DNA from: Curtobacterium sp. VKM Ac-1395
GTDB taxonomy: Bacteria > Actinomycetota > Actinomycetes > Actinomycetales > Microbacteriaceae
Direction: 5' to 3'
Assembly: GCF_015350975.1 (NCBI RefSeq)
Contig: NZ_JADKRX010000003.1
Span: 186,001-250,000, forward strand
DNA: 64,000 nucleotides
The number at the start of each line of letters is the position of its first letter. The first letter of the stretch is position 1. Below, one piece after another: positions 47,561-57,476 of the stretch. The position numbers and the translations under genes are program-made. The notes beneath the pieces were generated by a model, which did not search any database, was not told where the DNA came from, and was given only the letters and a program-made list of their open reading frames with translations.

Positions 47561-48985
47561 ATGTTCAGTGATTCCTCCGAGGTGCTCGCCTTCATCAAGG
47601 ACACGGACGTCAAGTTCCTCGACATCCGTTTCACGGACCTCCCCGGGGTCCAGCAGCACTTCAACATCCCCGCGTCCACGGTCGACGAGGACTTCTTCTC
47701 GGTCGGGCAGCTCTTCGACGGCTCCTCGATCCGCGGTTTCGCGTCGATCCACGAGTCCGACATGCAGCTCATCCCGGACGTGACGACCGCGTACGTCGAC
47801 CCGTTCCGCGCGGAGCGCACGCTGATCATGGTGTTCGACATCTACAACCCGCGCAACGGCGAGATCTACAGCCGTGACCCGCGCCAGGTCGCCAAGAAGG
47901 CCGAGAAGTACCTCGCCTCGACCGGCATCGCGGACACCGCGTTCTTCGCCCCCGAGGCCGAGTTCTACATCTTCGACGACGTCCGCTACTCGGTCACGCA
48001 GAACGAGTCGTTCTACGCGGTCGACTCCGAGGAGGGCGCCTGGAACACGGGTCGCACCGAAGAGGGCGGCAACCTCGCCAACAAGACCCCGTACAAGGGC
48101 GGCTACTTCCCCGTGTCGCCGGTCGACAAGACCGCCGACCTGCGCGACGACATCTCGCTCAAGCTGATCGACTCGGGCCTCGAGCTCGAGCGCGCGCACC
48201 ACGAGGTGGGCACCGGCGGCCAGCAGGAGATCAACTACAAGTTCGACACGATGGTCCACGCCGCGGACGACATCCTGAAGTTCAAGTACATCGTGAAGAA
48301 CACGGCCGAGCAGTGGGGCAAGGTCGCCACCTTCATGCCGAAGCCGATCTTCGGTGACAACGGCTCGGGCATGCACACGCACCAGTCGCTCTGGTCCGAC
48401 GGCACCCCGCTCTTCTACGACGAGAACGGCTACGGCGGGCTCTCCGACCTCGCCCGCTGGTACATCGGTGGCCTGCTCAAGCACGCGCCCGCCGTCCTGG
48501 CGTTCACGAACCCGACGATCAACTCGTACCACCGTCTGATCCCGGGCTTCGAGGCCCCCGTCAACCTCGTCTACTCGGCGGGCAACCGCTCGGCCTCGAT
48601 CCGCATCCCGATCACGGGCACGAACCCGAAGGCCAAGCGCATCGAGTTCCGCGCGCCCGACGCCTCCGGCAACCCGTACCTGGCGTTCGCCGTGCAGCTG
48701 ATGGCGGGCCTCGACGGCATCCAGAACCGCATCGAGCCGCACGAGCCCGTCGACAAGGACCTCTACGAGCTCCCGCCCGAGGAGGCGAAGAACATCCCGC
48801 AGGTGCCGGCGTCCCTCGACGCCGCACTCGCAGCGCTCGAGGCGGACCACGAGTTCCTCCTCAAGGGGAACGTCTTCACCGAGGACCTCATCCAGACGTG
48901 GATCGACTACAAGCGCGAGAACGAGATCCTGCCGATGGCGCAGCGTCCGCACCCGTTCGAGTACGAGCTGTACTTCGGCGTCTGA
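47561..48985 (+). CDS. glnA: Glutamine synthetase type I (adenylylatable)
   Basis: A 474-residue GSI-beta enzyme that makes glutamine from glutamate, ammonia and ATP. Motifs: [20 protein letters not shown] (N-terminal beta-grasp), the metal-binding AEFYIFDDV, the [18 protein letters not shown] active-site loop, and NRSASIRIP. The adenylylation loop is intact, with the target Tyr in [18 protein letters not shown], so the enzyme should be controlled by the GlnE encoded at 54507-57476. A TAGGAGA ribosome site precedes the ATG. It is preceded by a perfect GlnR box and followed by a perfect 15-bp terminator. Confidence 0.97.
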
Positions 48986-49377: not shown

Positions 49378-50799
49378 CTAGCGGCTGGTGGCCAGCACGT
49401 CGTTGGACCCTGCAGCAACGCTCACGGGTGCACCCGCGACCGGCGTGGGACGTCCCAGGGAACGGACGGACCACCCCGCCTTGACCCAGTCGGTGACCGG
49501 GAGGCAGTTGCGCGCGTCGATGACGACGCGACGTCCGACGAGGTCCCCGAGGGCGACCGGGTCGGCGCTGATGATGTCGTCCCACTCGGTGAGCACGAGG
49601 ACGATGTCGGCACCCTCGAGCGCCTCGGTCATGGACGCGGTGTAGCTCAGCGTCGGGAACGAGCGCTTGGCCGTCTCCATCGCCTCCGGGTCCCAGAGCG
49701 TGACCTGGGCGCCGCGGAGGTGCAGCGCCGCGGCGACGTTGAGCGCCGGCGAGTCGCGGACGTCGTCGGTGAGCGGCTTGAAGGCCGCGCCGATGACCGC
49801 CACGCGGCGGTTCAGAACCGATCCCCCGGCGGCGTCGATCGCCATGTCGATGACCCGCTGGCGCTGGCCCATGTTGATCTCGTCGACCTGCTGCATGAGC
49901 CCGACGACCTGGCCGGCGCCGATCTCGTTCGCGCGGTACATGAGCGCCCGGATGTCCTTCGGCAGGCAGCCGCCGCCGAACCCGAGGCCGGCGTTGAGGA
50001 ACTTCCGGCCGATGCGGGCGTCGTGGCCGAGGGCGTCGGCGAGCGTCGTCACGTCGGCGCCGGTGATGGCGCACATCTCGGAGATCGCGTTGATGAACGA
50101 GATCTTCGTGGCGAGGAACGCGTTCGCGCTGACCTTCACGAGCTCGGCGGTGGCGAGGTCCGTCGTGATGACCGGGGTGCCCTCGCTGATCGGTGCGGCG
50201 TAGACCTCGCGGATCACGGCGTCGGCTGCCTCGGACGCGCCGCCCCAGACCAGCCGGTCCGGGTGCAGGGTGTCCTCGACGGCCTTGCCCTCACGCAGGA
50301 ACTCCGGGTTCCAGATGAGCTCGGCGGTGATGCCGACGGGGGCGAACTCGCGGACGATGCCGCGGAGCCGTGCCGCCGTGCCGACCGGGACCGTCGACTT
50401 GCCGACGATGAGTCCGGGGTGGGTGAGGTTCTCGGCCACGCCACGGGTGGCGCTCTCGACGTACGCCAGGTTGGCGGCGTGCGAGCCGGCCTTCTGGGGT
50501 GTGCCGACGCAGACGAAGTGCACGTCAGCGGCCGCCACGGCGGAGGCGATGTCCGAGGTGAAGCGGAGCTTGCCGCTGGCCACGTGCTTCGTGATGAGCT
50601 CGGGCAGGCCGGGCTCGAAGAACGGGACCTCGCCGGCGGACAGTGCGGCGAGCTTCGCCGGGTCGACGTCCACGCCGATGGTCTCGAAGCCCATCTCGGC
50701 CATGGCGGCCGCGTGGGTGGCACCGAGGTAGCCGGTGCCGATGACGCTGATGACGGGCGCGGGACGGCCGTCCTTCTCGGAGTGCTTCTGAGCGGTCAT
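49378..50799 (-). CDS. UDP-glucose 6-dehydrogenase family protein
   Basis: A 473-residue UDP-glucose/GDP-mannose dehydrogenase. It begins MTAQKHSEKDGRPAP, then the Rossmann motif VISVIGTGYLGATHAAAMAE (GxGYxG at 21-26). Catalytic residues are K232 (FLATKISFINA) and nucleophile C278 (GFGGGCLPKDI). The C-terminal UDP-binding domain (VAVIGAAFKPLTDDVRDSPA) is complete. It oxidises UDP-glucose to UDP-glucuronate, or GDP-mannose likewise, using NAD+. The ATG overlaps the stop of the GH26 gene, making it the last gene of the polysaccharide operon; it probably supplies a uronic-acid donor. Confidence 0.9.
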   Translation of the reverse strand: MTAQKHSEKDGRPAPVISVIGTGYLGATHAAAMAEMGFETIGVDVDPAKLAALSAGEVPFFEPGLPELITKHVASGKLRFTSDIASAVAAADVHFVCVGTPQKAGSHAANLAYVESATRGVAENLTHPGLIVGKSTVPVGTAARLRGIVREFAPVGITAELIWNPEFLREGKAVEDTLHPDRLVWGGASEAADAVIREVYAAPISEGTPVITTDLATAELVKVSANAFLATKISFINAISEMCAITGADVTTLADALGHDARIGRKFLNAGLGFGGGCLPKDIRALMYRANEIGAGQVVGLMQQVDEINMGQRQRVIDMAIDAAGGSVLNRRVAVIGAAFKPLTDDVRDSPALNVAAALHLRGAQVTLWDPEAMETAKRSFPTLSYTASMTEALEGADIVLVLTEWDDIISADPVALGDLVGRRVVIDARNCLPVTDWVKAGWSVRSLGRPTPVAGAPVSVAAGSNDVLATSR

Positions 50800-52361
50800 T
50801 GCTTGACCTCCTGCAGGTCGTAGTCGATGTCGTTGCGCGAGATGCCGTCCACGAACGCCTGGAGGCTGTCCGCTCGGGAGTTGAGGCGCCAGTCGTTGGT
50901 CGACCGGACGCCGTCCACCACGGTGGTGGCGGTCTCGCTGAAGTAGGAGAACCCGATGACGTCGTCGTTCTCCGGCTTCGCGAGCCCGTCGAACAGGGAC
51001 GTCAGCCACTTGGACTTCTGGCCGCCGGTGACGGTCGTGCCGGACTCCGTGGCGCCGACCTCGCTGAGGAGGATCTTCTTGCCAGGAGCCACGTCCCGGA
51101 GCTGGCGGAGGGTGGCGTCGAAGGTGTTCGAGAACGTCGGGTCCTCGGAGGCGGTGCGGTAGTAGCCGCTCATGCCGACCCAGTCGACGTACGACGGTCC
51201 CGGGTAGTACGCCTTCATGTAGTCGAGCGTCTGGTACTTGGCGTTGCCGAGCTTGTCGATGCGGCTCGGCGCCCAGTTCCAGATGACGTAGTCGTTGGCG
51301 CCCGCCTTCGCGAAGACGTCGTGCACGTGCTGCCACATGGCCACGTAGGACCCTGCTGCGTTCTGCTGCGTGGCACCTTCGGACCAGTTGTACCAGGAGC
51401 CGTTCATCTCGTGGTCGAGACGGATGACCACCGGCTGGCCGTTGGCCTTCAGCGCGTCGGCGTACTTCGTCAGGTAGGCGTCGAACTTCCCGCTGACGAT
51501 GTCCTGGTTCGTGTAGCCCGCGACGTACTTCTGGTCGTTGCCGGTCTTCGACGGCGCGGACTCCCACGTCATGAGCGGGACACGTCCGTTCGCCCAGGAG
51601 CGCTGGACCGCGTTGGCGTTGAAGTCCTGGTCGAAGCCCTGGAAGAACCCGACCATGTTCGTCGCCTTGCCGACCTGCTGGGACACGTCGTCGTACTCGG
51701 CCCAGTTGAAGGGCGACTGCGCCGTGTAGAGGCCGTACCAGCGGGACGACTGCGCGAGGACCTGGGCCTTCGTGGGTGTGACGACCGGCGTGACGGGATC
51801 GGGGTCCTTCGACGGCCCGGTGTTCGGGTTCGTCGCCGGGGCGCCGGAGCCGCCCCCGTGGCCACCGTCGGCCGCCGTGCCGGAGCCGTGCGAGCCTCCC
51901 GTGCCGGATGCGCCGGACCCACCGGAGCCGGACCCACCGGAGCCGGACCCCGAGCCGCTCTTCGCACCGACCGCGGACTTGGCGTTCGCGGCCGAGGCCT
52001 TCGCCGACCCGAGCTGGGACTGGAGCGACGCGATCTGCGCCTTGAGCTGCGCGACCTGGTCGCCGCGGGAGCCGGACTGGGCGCTCGTGGACTCGAGCTT
52101 GCCCTCGAGCGTCCAGATCTGCTGCTGTGCGGCGTCGAGCTTGCCCTGGAGGGCCTCGGCGTCGACCGCCTTCTCCTGCACGGTCTTCACGCCGAGCGCG
52201 TGGTGGACCGCGGTGGAGACGGGGCTGGACGGAGAGATCCAGACGTTCCAGGTGATGAGACCCAGCGCCAGCACGATCGCGGTGGTGCCGACGGCCGTGC
52301 GCTTGGCGTGCTTGGAGGAGGGTGCCCACCACGTGCTGGTGGAGCGGAAGAGGTCAGACAA
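50796..52361 (-). CDS. Membrane-anchored GH26 glycoside hydrolase with coiled coil
   Basis: A 521-residue protein. One N-terminal membrane anchor (about 22-42) places the rest outside the cell. A predicted coiled coil (about 60-128, with KLDAAQQQIWTLEGKLEST) and a Gly/Ser spacer (134-173) precede a GH26 domain (about 200-510). Candidate catalytic residues are acid/base E318 in RLDHEMNGSWYNWS and nucleophile E434 in LLSEVGATES. GH26 members are mainly beta-mannanases, with some 1,3-xylanases and lichenases. Here it overlaps the synthase gene by 8 bp and the dehydrogenase by 4 bp, so it probably processes or releases the polymer made by this operon. Confidence 0.85.
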   Translation of the reverse strand: MSDLFRSTSTWWAPSSKHAKRTAVGTTAIVLALGLITWNVWISPSSPVSTAVHHALGVKTVQEKAVDAEALQGKLDAAQQQIWTLEGKLESTSAQSGSRGDQVAQLKAQIASLQSQLGSAKASAANAKSAVGAKSGSGSGSGGSGSGGSGASGTGGSHGSGTAADGGHGGGSGAPATNPNTGPSKDPDPVTPVVTPTKAQVLAQSSRWYGLYTAQSPFNWAEYDDVSQQVGKATNMVGFFQGFDQDFNANAVQRSWANGRVPLMTWESAPSKTGNDQKYVAGYTNQDIVSGKFDAYLTKYADALKANGQPVVIRLDHEMNGSWYNWSEGATQQNAAGSYVAMWQHVHDVFAKAGANDYVIWNWAPSRIDKLGNAKYQTLDYMKAYYPGPSYVDWVGMSGYYRTASEDPTFSNTFDATLRQLRDVAPGKKILLSEVGATESGTTVTGGQKSKWLTSLFDGLAKPENDDVIGFSYFSETATTVVDGVRSTNDWRLNSRADSLQAFVDGISRNDIDYDLQEVKQ

Positions 52362-53994
52362 TGAGGAACGCCTCCAGGGCGAAGATCGCGAACCCGATGA
52401 AGTACGGGATCGACGCGTACGGGTTGTACCGACGACGGGCCTTCACCGGTGCGGTGCGCGCAGCGGCCGTGTGGGCAGCGGGCGCGGCAGCGGCTGCGGC
52501 CGCTTCCCTCCGCGTGGCCAGGACGGTCGTCGTGGAGTTGGTGGTGACGTCGAGCTCACCGGCACGGCCGTCCGTCGACGTGAACAGCTCGTCGAAGGCG
52601 CGGTCCGCTGCCGTCTGGTCGGCGACGTACCCGGCGGAGTACCCCGCGGAGTACCCGGCGGCGTCGTCGGCGGGGACGCGGTCGACCGGGCTGACCGGCG
52701 TCTGCATCGCCACGGCCTGCGGCTGGACGGGCTCCTCCTCCACCGGACCGCCGGCGTAGGCACCGGCACGGGTGCCCCACCCGCTGGCGTGGCCGAGTCG
52801 GAAGAACCCGACGAGCCGGATCGGCATGAGGAAGAACGTCGACACGATGATGAACATCGGCAGGCGGAAGAAGTCGCTCGGCTTCTCGGCGAGGTGCCGC
52901 ATCTGCCGGATCGCCATGCTGAGCACGCTCGAGACGACCATGAGCGCGGCGACGTAGACGAAGCCGGTGGAGAAGCCGTACTGGTGCAGGATCCCCTGGT
53001 AGAGGTTCTCGCCCTGGCCGGTGAAGGCGCGGTAGACCCAGCCGGCGATCACGCCGAAGAGCATGAACGGCAGGATGATGTCGGTGATGAAGAACAGCGC
53101 CAGCACCGGGGCGTGCCCGAGCATCCAGGGCATCATCCGCAGCGTGTTGTACTGCGAGCCGCGAGCCCAGCGGAGCTGCTGCTTGAACAGCTTCTTCACC
53201 TGCAGCGGAGCGTCCGTGTAGACCAGCGACGTGTACTGGTAGACGGTCCGGTAGCCCTCCTTGAGCGTCAGGTTCGTCAGCGTGCGGTCGTCGGAGACCT
53301 CGAGGAAGACGCCCATGAACTTCTCGTGCATGAACTTGTCCATGACCCGCATGAGGATGTTCCGCCGGAACGCGATCGTGCGCCCTGGCAGGCAGCCGAT
53401 CTGTCCGAGGACGCTCTGCGCGGGCATCGAGTACAGCGCGCGGGAGTTCTCCAGCCAGTCCGCCCAGCGGGTGATCCAGGAGCGCTCGGGCTCGAGGATG
53501 CGCTGACGGGTGGTGACGCCGCCGACGGACTCGTCGGCGAACGGCCGGAGCAGCTCCTCGAGCGCGCCGGGCGTCCAGACGGTGTCGGAGTCGACGAGCA
53601 CCGTGATGTCGCCGTTGGACATCTCGGTGCCGACCTTGACGGCGTTGCGCTTGCCGGGGATCGGGGTGTGGGTCCAGCGGACGAGTGGGGCGAACTCGTC
53701 GCAGACCTCCTCGAGGGCCTCGTTGCGTGCGCCGTTGATGACGACGATGATCTCGCCGGGGCGCTGCTCGACCATGCGGCCGATGACGTCCCGGAAGAGG
53801 TCGAGTGGCTCGTCCACCACGGGGACGACGACACTCGTCGTCCCGGTGTACGTGCCGGTGAAGGGGCGGTAGCGGGCGGACAGGACGACCTTGAGCACCC
53901 AGAGCAACCAGATCACCGCGGAGTACACGGCGAACAGGTAGAACTCGGGGCGCCCGTCGACCATCTGCCTGATCTGCAGAATGAAAGTGAACAT
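52354..53994 (-). CDS. Processive family 2 glycosyltransferase (hyaluronan/cellulose-synthase-like)
   Basis: A 546-residue membrane glycosyltransferase starting at the ATG at 53994 (MFTFILQIRQMVDGRPEFYL). One membrane helix is followed by the cytosolic GT2 domain with the processive D,D,D,QxxRW set: D61 (PVVDEP), DSD at 135-137, D235/D236 (EVSDDRTLTNL) and QQLRW at 272-276. Further helices (about 300-430) form the translocation channel. The C-terminal tail is low-complexity (AAGYSAGYSAGYVAD) before a final helix. It is first in an operon with GH26 and UDP-sugar dehydrogenase genes, so a uronic-acid-containing exopolysaccharide is likely. Confidence 0.9.
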   Translation of the reverse strand: MFTFILQIRQMVDGRPEFYLFAVYSAVIWLLWVLKVVLSARYRPFTGTYTGTTSVVVPVVDEPLDLFRDVIGRMVEQRPGEIIVVINGARNEALEEVCDEFAPLVRWTHTPIPGKRNAVKVGTEMSNGDITVLVDSDTVWTPGALEELLRPFADESVGGVTTRQRILEPERSWITRWADWLENSRALYSMPAQSVLGQIGCLPGRTIAFRRNILMRVMDKFMHEKFMGVFLEVSDDRTLTNLTLKEGYRTVYQYTSLVYTDAPLQVKKLFKQQLRWARGSQYNTLRMMPWMLGHAPVLALFFITDIILPFMLFGVIAGWVYRAFTGQGENLYQGILHQYGFSTGFVYVAALMVVSSVLSMAIRQMRHLAEKPSDFFRLPMFIIVSTFFLMPIRLVGFFRLGHASGWGTRAGAYAGGPVEEEPVQPQAVAMQTPVSPVDRVPADDAAGYSAGYSAGYVADQTAADRAFDELFTSTDGRAGELDVTTNSTTTVLATRREAAAAAAAPAAHTAAARTAPVKARRRYNPYASIPYFIGFAIFALEAFLIV

Positions 53995-54506
53995 CGATCC
54001 CTGCTTCAACGTTCGAGGGGGAGATTCCGCGCCATCGGGAAATCGGGGTCGGTTCGGGTGACTCCATTGACGCATCCCGGAGTGGACCGCTGCAACGCCG
54101 CCCCCGACCGAGGGCATCGCCGTTTCGTGACGGGGTACATCGGAGTCCCCCTCGCGCCCCACGACCGTGGTCCCCACGGTTGCCGACAGCACATCGGCGG
54201 ACCACGGACAGCGCGCACGTCGCGCGACGACGCCGAGCTGTCAGCCTGGAGGCACGGTGTGCGTCCCTGGGAAAGCCCTGGTCACGACGAGGTCACCGGG
54301 CGCGTCGCCGGTACTGTCCGCACCGCTGCCTCCGCACCCTCCGGGGGTGGACAGCGGGTGTCCTACGTCGAGGACAGCCTCCGCGGCCGTCACCGTCGGG
54401 GTACGGATCGGTCCGCCGCGGGGGACGGATCCGGTAACGCGGATTTGACGTGCGCGAAGCGGAGCGCTGGACACGGAGCGAGGACGCCCGGGCGTGTCGC
54501 GGGGCG
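53995..54506. promoter_or_regulatory. Long gene-free upstream region of the polysaccharide operon
   Basis: 512 bp between the glnE stop and the glycosyltransferase start, without a supported gene. It contains the short palindrome ACCGTGG-TCC-CCACGGT (54164-54180), a candidate operator or hairpin about 170 nt before the start codon. A lone CTGGAGGCAC half-copy of the dispersed repeat lies near 54245. The unusual length suggests regulated transcription of the operon. No confident -10/-35 was found. Confidence 0.4.
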
Positions 54507-57476
54507 TCAGGCGCCGTAGAACTCGCGTTCGAAGACCTGCCGAGCGCGTCGGGTGACGCCGAGGTAGTCCTCCTCGAGCTCGGACGCCGACCCCGGCGGG
54601 TACTCCATCAACCGCGCGATGCCCTCGAGCTGGATCCGGTCGACCGGCAGCACGTCGGTCGTCTTCCCCGACCAGAGCACGAGGGCGCTGCGGGTCCGTG
54701 ACGCGAAACGCCAGGCGGCCGCCAACCGGTCGCCGTCCTCGGGTGCGACGAGGCCCTCGGCGACGGCGCCGTCGAGGGCGTCGAGCGTCGACGTGGTCCG
54801 GAGCGCCGGCACGTGCAGCGCGTGTTGGAGCTGCAGCAGCTGGACGAACCACTCGACGTCGCTGAGGGAACCGCGGCCGAGCTTGAGGTGCCGTGCGGGG
54901 TCGGCGCCGCGGGGCAGGCGCTCGGACTCGACCCGGGCCTTGATCCGCCGGACCTCGCGGACCTCGCGCTCGGCGATGGACGCCGGGTAGCGGGTGCGGT
55001 CGGCCAGGTGCTCGAAGTCCCGGAGCAGGGCGTCGTCGCCGACGGCACCGCGGGCTCGGAGCAGCGCCTGGGCCTCCCACGTCAGGGACCAGCGGGCGTA
55101 GTAGGCACCGTAGGAGTCGAGGGTGCGGGTGACCGGCCCGTTCTTGCCCTCGGGACGCAGGTCGATGTCGAGGTCGAACGGGTAGAGCGCGTCCTCGGTC
55201 AGCCGGTTCAGCTCGCGGACGATCGTCTGCGCCGCGCGCGAGGCGGTCTCCGGCGGCAGGTCGGTGCCACGGTGCACGAAGAGCACGTCGGCGTCCGAGC
55301 CGAACCCGAGCTCGCGGCCGCCGTACCGCCCCATCGCGATGACGCCGAACTCCAGCCCGGCGGGGGCGTCACGCCGGGCGAGCTCGAGCGCGCCGGTCAG
55401 GGTGGCCTCGGTGATGTCGCTGAGCGCCGGGCCGAGCCGGTCGACGTCGATCCGGCCGAGCGTCGCGGCCATGCCGAGGCGCAGGGTCTCGCGCCGCCGG
55501 ACGGACCGGATCAGCGAGGCGGCGGCGTCGACGTCGTCCCCGTGGCGCGCGGTCGTCGCCCGGACCTCGGAGAGCAGGGCGGGGACGGGTCGGGCCTGCA
55601 GCAGCGTCTCGGGTTCGTCGAGCCACGCGACGGCCTCCGGGAAGCGTTCGAGGAGCCCGGACAGGAACGCGGACTCGGACAGCACGGTCGTCAGGCTGTG
55701 CGCGGCACCCGAGGAGTCGCGGAGCATGCGGAGGAACCAGCTGGACTCCCCCAGGCGGTCGCTGAGCCGACGGAAGGCCAGCAGTGCCCGGTCGGGAGCC
55801 GGCCCTTCCGCCATCCACCGGAGCAGGACGGGCAGCAGGTTCCGCTGGATCGCGGCACGTCGGCTCGTGCCCTGCGTCAGCGCGCGGATGTGCCCGAGGG
55901 CGCCGTCCGGGTCGACGAACCCGATCGCGCCGAGCCGGTCGCTCGCCTGGTCGTTCGTCAGCACGATCTCGCCGTCGGAAGCCGCGACCGCGGACAGCAG
56001 CGGGCGGTAGAACAGCCGCTCGTGCAGCCCGCGGACCTCGAGCTTCACCGAGCGCCACCGGGTCTCGAGGGCGGCGGCCGAGTTCGCGAGACCACTCGAC
56101 CGCGCGAGCACACGGAGCTCGTCCTGGTCGGAGGGCATCAGGTGGGTGCGCTGGAGGTACCGGAGCTGGATGCGGTGCTCGAGCACGCGGAGCAGCGCGT
56201 AGTCCGGGCCGAACCGAGCCGCCTCGGGACGGCCGACGTACCCGGCGGCCGCCAGGGCCTCCATCGCGTCGAGGGTCGACCGGGCACGGACGCCGGCGTC
56301 GTCGCGCCCGTGCACGAGCTGCAGGAGCTGCACGGTGAACTCGACGTCGCGCAGGCCACCGGGACCGAGCTTGAGCTGACGGTCGACCTCGGCGTCCGGG
56401 ATGTTGTCCGTGACCCGCTCGCGCATCCGCTGCACCGACTCGACGAAGCCCGGTCGGCCGGAGGAGTTCCACACGAACGGGGCGACCGCTGCGGCGTAGC
56501 GCTCCCCCAGGTCGATCGAGCCGGCGATCGGTCGCGCCTTGAGCAGCGCCTGGAACTCCCACCCCTTCGCCCAGCGCTCGTAGTACGCCACGTGGGAGTC
56601 CAGCGTCCGGACGAGGGCGCCGTCCTTGCCCTCCGGGCGGAGGTTGGCGTCGACCTCCCAGAGCGCGGGTTCGGCGGCGAGGTCCGTGATGACGTGCGTC
56701 GCCGCGATCGCGATCCGGGTGGCGACGAGCACCGCGCGGTCCGTCCCGACGCCGGTGCCCGACTCGGCGTCCGCCGTCGGCTCGGTCACGAAGATGACGT
56801 CGACGTCGCTGACGTAGTTGAGCTCCCGCGCGCCCGCCTTGCCCATCGCGATGACGGCGAGCGGGGTGGCGTCCACGTCCGCCCGGGGGAAGGGGACCTC
56901 GCGCCGGGCGACGTCCACGGCGACGTCGAGCGCCGCTCCGGCGAGGTCTGCCAGGCCGGCGGCGACCGCGGGGAAGGCCTCGGTCGGGGACGGGTTCAGG
57001 ACGTCGAAGAGCGCGATCTGTGCGAGGTGCCGGCGGTAGCGCACGCGCAGGCGCAGTCGGGCTGCTTCGTCGACGGCGCCGTCCACGGCCTCGGTGAGGG
57101 ACGCCGTGTAGGCCTGCTGCGACCACGGGGCCGTGACCGGGTCGAGCAGCAGCGCGAGTTCGGCGGGGCGTCGCTGCAGGAACTCACCGAGCCCGACGGA
57201 CGCACCGAGGAGCCGCACGAGCCGTTCGGTCGCTGCGTCGTCCTCGAGCACCGCGCGGAGCTCGTCCGGGTGGCCCTCCATGAGCCGCTCGAGCCGGCGG
57301 AGGGCACCGTCGGGGTCCGCGGTGACGCCCCAGAGCCCCGGGACGTCGGTCACCGAGACCCGCATGGCCGCACCGAAGCGCTCCTGCAGGTCGGCGAGCC
57401 GGTCCAGGCTCTCCGACAGCTCCGCGAAGCCCACACGGGCCAGCTCGGAGCGCGACGTCTTCGTCCTGCCGGTCAT
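54507..57476 (-). CDS. glnE: Bifunctional glutamine synthetase adenylyltransferase/deadenylase
   Basis: A 989-residue GlnE with two nucleotidyltransferase halves. The N-terminal (adenylyl-removing) half has GKAGARELNYVSDVDVIFVT; the C-terminal (adenylylating) half has GRYGGRELGFGSDADVLFVH. Each is followed by a helical GlnD/UR-type domain (e.g. LKLGPGGLRDVEFTVQLLQL and LKLGRGSLSDVEWFVQLLQL). It attaches AMP to and removes it from the Tyr of GlnA1, whose loop is intact in this genome. It lies 16 bp downstream of glnA2 in the same operon, the usual actinobacterial order. Confidence 0.96.
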   Translation of the reverse strand: MTGRTKTSRSELARVGFAELSESLDRLADLQERFGAAMRVSVTDVPGLWGVTADPDGALRRLERLMEGHPDELRAVLEDDAATERLVRLLGASVGLGEFLQRRPAELALLLDPVTAPWSQQAYTASLTEAVDGAVDEAARLRLRVRYRRHLAQIALFDVLNPSPTEAFPAVAAGLADLAGAALDVAVDVARREVPFPRADVDATPLAVIAMGKAGARELNYVSDVDVIFVTEPTADAESGTGVGTDRAVLVATRIAIAATHVITDLAAEPALWEVDANLRPEGKDGALVRTLDSHVAYYERWAKGWEFQALLKARPIAGSIDLGERYAAAVAPFVWNSSGRPGFVESVQRMRERVTDNIPDAEVDRQLKLGPGGLRDVEFTVQLLQLVHGRDDAGVRARSTLDAMEALAAAGYVGRPEAARFGPDYALLRVLEHRIQLRYLQRTHLMPSDQDELRVLARSSGLANSAAALETRWRSVKLEVRGLHERLFYRPLLSAVAASDGEIVLTNDQASDRLGAIGFVDPDGALGHIRALTQGTSRRAAIQRNLLPVLLRWMAEGPAPDRALLAFRRLSDRLGESSWFLRMLRDSSGAAHSLTTVLSESAFLSGLLERFPEAVAWLDEPETLLQARPVPALLSEVRATTARHGDDVDAAASLIRSVRRRETLRLGMAATLGRIDVDRLGPALSDITEATLTGALELARRDAPAGLEFGVIAMGRYGGRELGFGSDADVLFVHRGTDLPPETASRAAQTIVRELNRLTEDALYPFDLDIDLRPEGKNGPVTRTLDSYGAYYARWSLTWEAQALLRARGAVGDDALLRDFEHLADRTRYPASIAEREVREVRRIKARVESERLPRGADPARHLKLGRGSLSDVEWFVQLLQLQHALHVPALRTTSTLDALDGAVAEGLVAPEDGDRLAAAWRFASRTRSALVLWSGKTTDVLPVDRIQLEGIARLMEYPPGSASELEEDYLGVTRRARQVFEREFYGA

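Follow-up and report, generated by a model that had tools for sequence, protein, structure and literature searches.

Three overlapping genes of Curtobacterium sp. VKM Ac-1395, an actinobacterium of the family Microbacteriaceae, raise the question of which polymer would be produced by a processive glycosyltransferase that is encoded together with a membrane-anchored glycoside hydrolase and a sugar-nucleotide dehydrogenase. The genes, hereafter called the triad, lie in the window analyzed here, a stretch of 64,000 nucleotides of contig NZ_JADKRX010000003.1 (positions 186,001 to 250,000; assembly GCF_015350975.1):

49378..50799, minus strand: UDP-glucose 6-dehydrogenase (hereafter abbreviated as UGDH), 473 amino acids, with Cys278
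50796..52361, minus strand: membrane-anchored GH26 enzyme, 521 amino acids, TTG start, GH26 domain from about residue 193
52354..53994, minus strand: GT2 processive synthase, hyaluronan-synthase-like, 546 amino acids, with five membrane segments predicted from hydropathy, of which the last is at the C-terminus

All three reading frames are open on the minus strand at these coordinates. The overlaps reported in the initial annotation, 8 bp between the synthase and GH26 genes (52354-52361) and 4 bp between the GH26 and UGDH genes (50796-50799), were found again, and its family identities and catalytic residues agree with Pfam matches and motifs. The reading that we favor, with a probability of roughly 0.6, is that the triad is a synthase-dependent exopolysaccharide (EPS) module, which would make a beta-glycan containing glucuronate, comparable to pneumococcal type 3 polysaccharide, and trim it with the coupled GH26 enzyme. 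UGDH would supply UDP-glucuronate; the GT2 synthase would polymerize and export the chain, most likely composed of glucose and glucuronate in beta-1,3/1,4 linkage as in type 3 polysaccharide; and the GH26 enzyme, held by its stalk outside the membrane and translationally coupled to the synthase, would cut the emerging chain, thereby setting its length or freeing it.

Could the three genes be chance neighbors? Gene order and strand are identical in all 30 loci that were taken from named genomes. Across 299 genomes of Microbacteriaceae, matches to the synthase profile were obtained in 51 (20 of 85 genera) and to the GH26 profile in 64 (24 of 85 genera), the latter being divided into 50 matches below 1e-110 and 14 no stronger than 5.5e-47; the 51 synthase genomes correspond to the 50 with a strong GH26 match plus one additional genome, G003. 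A same-strand GH26 gene adjoins the synthase gene in every one of these 51 genomes which, as the 57 junctions and 28 active-site sequences considered below, are related sequences and not independent events. Because order and strand are kept in 30/30 loci and the GH26 gene is adjacent in 51/51 genomes, chance association can be ruled out. UGDH comes next in 30 of the 31 synthase-GH26 genomes that were read (out of 50, the genome of the window being excluded). The exception is G003, which has a synthase of 55% identity, a GH26 enzyme of 30-32% identity and no UGDH next to them; eight other weak GH26 loci, found in seven Microbacteriaceae genomes, have no synthase. The module formed by the triad is old and conserved, and its synthase and GH26 are probably coupled. 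The initial annotation had named a lack of co-occurrence in relatives as a refuting case, and this failed, the genes strictly co-occurring in the genomes examined; its view of a minimal module combining donor supply, polymerization and tethered trimming is supported by this genomic pattern.

The junction between the synthase and GH26 genes contains two elements of translation initiation:

52359..52361, minus strand: TTG start codon of the GH26 gene, inside the last synthase codons
52371..52375, minus strand: GGAGG, Shine-Dalgarno-like site for the GH26 gene, within synthase Leu-Glu-Ala codons

The 8-bp overlap depends on the TTG start, which is supported by its presence in 57/57 loci: the start nearest to the synthase stop, this being the one that the scan picks, is always TTG and lies at -8 (51 loci), -14 (five loci) or -17 (one locus) from the end of that stop, with at least one genome counted twice. 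GGAGG is found just upstream of this start in 25 of the 29 junctions viewed (manual count). The TTG start looks selected, because the NTT codon that it requires, for a hydrophobic residue, is rare elsewhere in the synthase core (152 of 8615 codons with T in second position); this weak start may have been fixed since the last membrane segment would have to take up a polar or small residue if ATG or GTG stood here instead. Starts outside Microbacteriaceae differ (GTG at -8, ATG at -20 and ATG at -17). To judge from the junction, synthase and GH26 enzyme are likely made in a fixed ratio via translational coupling.

What kind of chain would the synthase make? The protein matches the GT2 family PF13641 (8.7e-25) and has the features of hyaluronan-synthase-like processive GT2 enzymes, namely the DxD (D135xD137), DDR (D235-D236), QxxRW (QQLRW, 272-276) and WGTR (406-409) motifs together with membrane segments around the catalytic core (five in total according to a simple hydropathy scan). 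Hyaluronan synthases rank on top among the solved proteins matching its profile (2.7e-22), and no cellulose or chitin synthase is present among the 10 solved-protein matches at E 0.01. HasA-HasB is a hyaluronan system consisting of synthase and dehydrogenase, and the motifs and best solved matches would equally suit a comparable chain of N-acetylglucosamine and glucuronate in the case of the triad. This alternative is very unlikely, since the GH26 enzyme would then have to accept N-acetylglucosamine, a property that is not known of any GH26 (no search aimed at it was made), and since the synthase scores far too low for the equivalog models of NodC and PgaC (108.4 vs 550 bits and 58.8 vs 422.3 bits, respectively), with no hyaluronan-synthase model among the NCBIfam matches of the synthase. 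The core motifs DDR-LTN, QxxRW and WGTR are common to the triad synthase and those of hyaluronan systems, viral and vertebrate synthases included, to which the triad adds a C-terminal tail with a membrane segment, a 'CLPGRT' loop and the GH26 partner. As to the dehydrogenase, it shows Pfam matches to the N-terminal, central and C-terminal domains of UDPG/GDP-mannose dehydrogenases, passes the subfamily cut-off for nucleoside diphosphate-sugar dehydrogenases (408.4 vs 189.8 bits) and possesses the catalytic Cys278; its best solved match is the UDP-glucose dehydrogenase 4a7p, its scores stay below the equivalog cut-offs of TuaD and AglM, and the hydropathy scan predicts no membrane segment.

The partners of the pneumococcal type 3 synthase, Cps3S, are UGDH and a UTP-glucose-1-phosphate uridylyltransferase. 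The triad locus does not contain this complete gene set, no uridylyltransferase being part of an operon that has glnE and glnA1 as direct neighbors. The likeness with the type 3 system would lie in a single GT2 synthase using UDP-glucuronate and in the two-sugar beta-1,3/1,4 polymer predicted for the triad. Both type 3 polysaccharide (glucose, glucuronate) and hyaluronan (N-acetylglucosamine, glucuronate) are synthase-made, and the part of the source at hand names no GH26 enzyme for the type 3 capsule (PMC12220298), whereas the hydrolase of the triad is conserved and overlaps the synthase. A GH26 gene is present also within the wps-1 EPS cluster of Actinoplanes missouriensis which, however, is of the Wzx/Wzy type and comprises 11 genes, with no synthase-UGDH triad described in the available portion of the report (PMC13390465). 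A UGDH-type gene lies beside a GT2 gene, 28.5% identical to the synthase, on the Lactococcus plasmid pUCCL639B, but there the dehydrogenase comes first and no GH26 is annotated alongside. Bcs cellulose clusters combine a PilZ-bearing synthase with a GH8 endo-glycanase that acts on the synthase's own product. The triad resembles them in associating a synthase with an endo-glycanase, having GH26 where Bcs has GH8; neither PilZ nor GH8 is found among the Pfam matches of its three proteins, which sets it apart from the Bcs system.

The possible substrate of the hydrolase is central to the question. The protein matches PF02156 (51.6 bits vs a cut-off of 20.2) and belongs to CAZy family GH26 by virtue of this domain, two catalytic glutamates and a (beta/alpha)8 barrel; its HE motif is at residues 317-318, and catalytic E318 and E434 are present in 28/28 triad GH26s. 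A short N-terminal end is followed by a membrane segment (24-42, by hydropathy), a coiled-coil-like stretch (assigned by eye), a Gly/Ser linker and the catalytic domain. It is 96% identical to the GH26 of Curtobacterium sp. GC_Cur_3, and its own genome contains one match to the triad GH26. The predicted structure is good (predicted local distance difference test, pLDDT, 81.7; predicted template modeling score, pTM, 0.85), and its nearest solved fold is CtLic26A, the lichenase domain of Clostridium thermocellum endoglucanase H (Z 27.6, 261 residues, 2.2 Å, 26% identity), mannanases scoring up to Z 24.7. The triad enzyme has fold and both catalytic glutamates in common with CtLic26A, from which it differs in its membrane anchor and stalk, a longer loop before the DWR motif (longer also than in other GH26s) and one residue of the barrel:

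51156..51158, minus strand: codon of Arg402 of the GH26 enzyme, immediately following the strand formed by residues 394-401

The substrate site of CtLic26A has a Trp two residues past the conserved Tyr with which the strand preceding that of the nucleophile ends. This Trp is replaced by Arg402 in 28/28 triad GH26s, whereas 17 other GH26s (a set that includes the G003 enzyme) show Trp in 13 cases, Thr in two, Val in one and Gly in one. Similarly, Thr488-Asn489 is present in 28/28 triad GH26s and position 488 is Glu in 11 of the 17 others. Strand 394-401 is taken as barrel strand 6, with Arg402 at the face carrying the catalytic residues in the model. Arg402 and Thr488-Asn489 would fit a chain containing glucuronate better than a neutral one. 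The suggestion of the initial annotation that a GH26 partner points to mannan or xylan does not simply hold, given that CtLic26A is nearest and that these residues extend to the whole clade; an ordinary mannanase, as assumed from the family name alone, is rejected by the fold ranking and Arg402.

Could the polymer nonetheless be neutral, resembling mannan, cellulose or mixed-linkage glucan, with the GH26 enzyme an ordinary mannanase or lichenase and UGDH serving another pathway or a side decoration? The nearest solved GH26 is indeed a lichenase, the activities of the family are of this type, and synthase-GH26 pairs without adjacent UGDH do exist, namely L062 and L136. We nevertheless consider a neutral polymer unlikely, in view of UGDH lying next in 30/31 genomes and accompanying the pair also on a plasmid (see below), of the exchange, throughout the clade, of the aromatic residue for Arg402, and of a synthase whose closest solved proteins are hyaluronan and not cellulose synthases. 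Outside the family, Arg402 and Thr-Asn are kept in two pairs linked to UGDH (L135 and L137); at position 402, the pairs without adjacent UGDH have Val (L062) and Tyr (L136). The L062 pair (L062:6745-9411) is diverged and lies beside proteins that by eye resemble RCC1-repeat proteins.

Several observations weigh against a glucuronate-containing product trimmed by the GH26 enzyme. The UGDH-free comparison for Arg402 consists of the two bacterial loci just mentioned, and the genome of L062 has a UGDH elsewhere (55%); moreover, the pair of phage Caudovirales GX15bay (see below) has Arg402 and Thr-Asn with no UGDH found in its record, so that Arg402 and a neighboring UGDH do not always go together. 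The proposed binding of the glucuronate carboxylate at the Arg402 site is based on where this residue lies relative to the strand rather than on coordinates. The His preceding the catalytic Glu is Gln in 3/28 triad GH26s, and the net charge of the GH26 domain, considered as a possible hint of an acidic substrate, was dropped because it did not differ clearly from that of other GH26s. The genome of the window has a second intact UGDH on another contig (58% identity), the synthase scores best in NCBIfam against NodC while remaining far below the cut-off of that model, and the AlphaFold prediction of the synthase (mean pLDDT 40.9) is unusable for its donor pocket.

Neither a GT2-GH26-UGDH triad nor a GH26 specificity for glucuronate-containing chains was found in the literature, which was searched with narrow terms and covered few subscription papers. 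If the glucuronate-containing glycan is the true product, the triad would be a new entry among the few one-protein synthases that have a built-in cutter, from bacteria common on plants and in soil, and its GH26 specificity would be new to the literature searched. The presence of the three genes as one unit renders the sugars of the synthase and the role of the GH26 enzyme directly testable.

Relatives beyond the family bear upon another alternative, glucuronan, in which the synthase would use UDP-glucuronate only and the resulting beta-1,4-polyglucuronate would be cut by the GH26 enzyme. A sample of the phylum gave synthase matches at 1e-40 in 4 of 395 other genomes, all weak, and a sample of the class (345 genomes) gave three strong synthases outside Microbacteriaceae (L135, L136 and L137) plus 19 weaker relatives. 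The three strong ones all have an adjoining GH26; UGDH is next in L137, is represented only by its beginning at a contig end in L135 and is absent within 15 kb in L136. Among the eight distant loci fetched from the 19, six contain a UGDH match (one, L141, of only 29%) and two have a PL14 lyase gene overlapping that of UGDH; PL14 is present also in L084, one of four earlier distant loci (204.7 bits). PL14 enzymes act on uronate polymers, glucuronan included, and their presence near some distant synthase-UGDH pairs would be in line with a pure glucuronate chain. We deem this quite improbable, PL14 occurring in only 3 of the 12 distant loci examined, and the proximity of the GH26 enzyme to glucanases being better suited to a chain that still holds glucose. 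The PL14 genes at distant loci suggest that synthase, UGDH and a cutter of uronate polymers may form a recurring set in which the cutter is exchanged. UGDH and a PL14 lyase lie close to a related synthase gene in L140:6217-10361 and L143:3550-7560 of other actinobacteria, which looks like a parallel system using another cutter. In L136:8114-10306 and L137:8323-10476, the gene just upstream of the synthase codes for an acyltransferase fused to an SGNH domain, which suggests an acylated polymer in these two cases.

Has the triad been inherited vertically? Its genomic address is defined by two genes outside the module:

54507..57476, minus strand: glnE (named by NCBIfam), upstream border
47561..48985, plus strand: glnA1, type I glutamine synthetase, downstream border

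The module lies between glnE and glnA1 in 19 of 22 longer loci (21 from other Microbacteriaceae genera and one more Curtobacterium), L043 having glnE only and L052 and L059 neither gene. Among 27 genomes probed with glnE, nearly all picked for lacking the triad and two having it elsewhere, 16 (one of the same genus) have glnE and glnA1 no more than 1.5 kb apart and no triad gene in between, and glnA1 falls outside the flank in the other 11. Pairwise identities track those of glnE over 23 loci, with Spearman coefficients of 0.61 for the synthase, 0.69 for GH26 and 0.40 for UGDH, values equaled in 0, 0 and 1 of 999 permutations, respectively. From these comparisons, the history of the triad is read as mainly vertical inheritance with loss.

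The initial annotation saw a sign of regulation in the upstream region and its short palindrome, and conserved elements are indeed found within the 512-bp gap between glnE and the synthase gene:

54025..54042, minus strand: 18-nt dyad, candidate leader hairpin or operator, 31-48 nt before the synthase ATG (placed by eye from the identical stretch in L006)
54132..54138: GTMCCCC, copy 1 of the upstream repeat
54145..54151: GTMCCCC, copy 2
54181..54191: conserved short palindrome, TGCTGTCAGCA in most relatives, with one change in the window, flanked by GTCC and GGAC
54398..54404: GTMCCCC, copy 3, 22 bp from copy 4
54420..54426: GTMCCCC, copy 4

The GTMCCCC element occurs 130 times in 15,600 bp of upstream sequence vs 109 times in 488,085 bp in Curtobacterium, from the upstream regions of which it was picked, so only the figures from 20 other loci (L071 being of the same genus) constitute a test: 54 copies in 10,229 bp upstream vs 55 in 294,789 bp of remaining sequence, with the element present in 19/20. 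Two copies 20-24 bp apart are found in 11 of these 20 loci (manual count). The distance between dyad and ATG is 46-59 nt for 22 of 24 loci, the other two having the dyad 81 and 94 nt ahead of the start codon; the dyad pattern, written after viewing many of the same loci and scored at the best site within 120 nt, fits at 18/18 positions in 19 loci, 17 in four and 15 in one. At its two variable pairs the changes are paired in 33 of 46 cells, a number reached in 0 of 2000 shuffles that ignore relatedness. The dyad also precedes the relocated triads of L052 (18/18) and L059 (15/18) and a plasmid copy (18/18), and was not found before the G003 pair (best fit 13); it thus seems to belong to the module. 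No Rfam element matched the upstream region at the gathering threshold, and a consensus scan of this region returned no sigma-70 promoter.

The plasmid copy just mentioned is a whole triad on pTCL of Curtobacterium sp. TC1 (164 kb; L119:10001-14572), with the same 8- and 4-bp overlaps and 88.6% DNA identity to the copy of Curtobacterium aurantiacum; no other glycan gene is annotated in the 21.6-kb pTCL stretch, the gene table of which is incomplete. Phage Caudovirales GX15bay (MK557849; L122:7105-10888), the genome of which was assembled from a mangrove-soil virome, has a synthase of 59% identity, a stalked GH26 enzyme of 44% identity (annotated TTG start, 26-bp overlap) and a second, short GH26; UGDH is neither found nor annotated in this record, and UDP-glucuronate would have to be provided by the host cell. 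Chloroviruses are known to make hyaluronan. The GX15bay genes are annotated as endoglucanase and mannanase, and viral carbohydrate genes are presented as degradation-linked auxiliary genes in the accessible part of the original paper (PMC6460857). The pairing of GH26 with a synthase suggests polymer making instead of degradation, which would recast a gene pair now taken as degrading polysaccharides. A bolder proposal, which we regard as doubtful, is that a GH26 lineage switched to glucuronate chains as a coupled cutter or transglycosylase within a mobile module, with which GX15bay would coat its infected or lysogenized host. No relatives were confirmed in viral_contigs (A2, P0005, P0006, A4), a result that says little given the few peptide patterns used (two for A2 and A4). 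Finally, the alphaproteobacterial plasmid pRX1 of Methylocapsa contains an unannotated, relic-like stretch of 60 residues (L121:4001-4180) that is 83% identical to part of the synthase.

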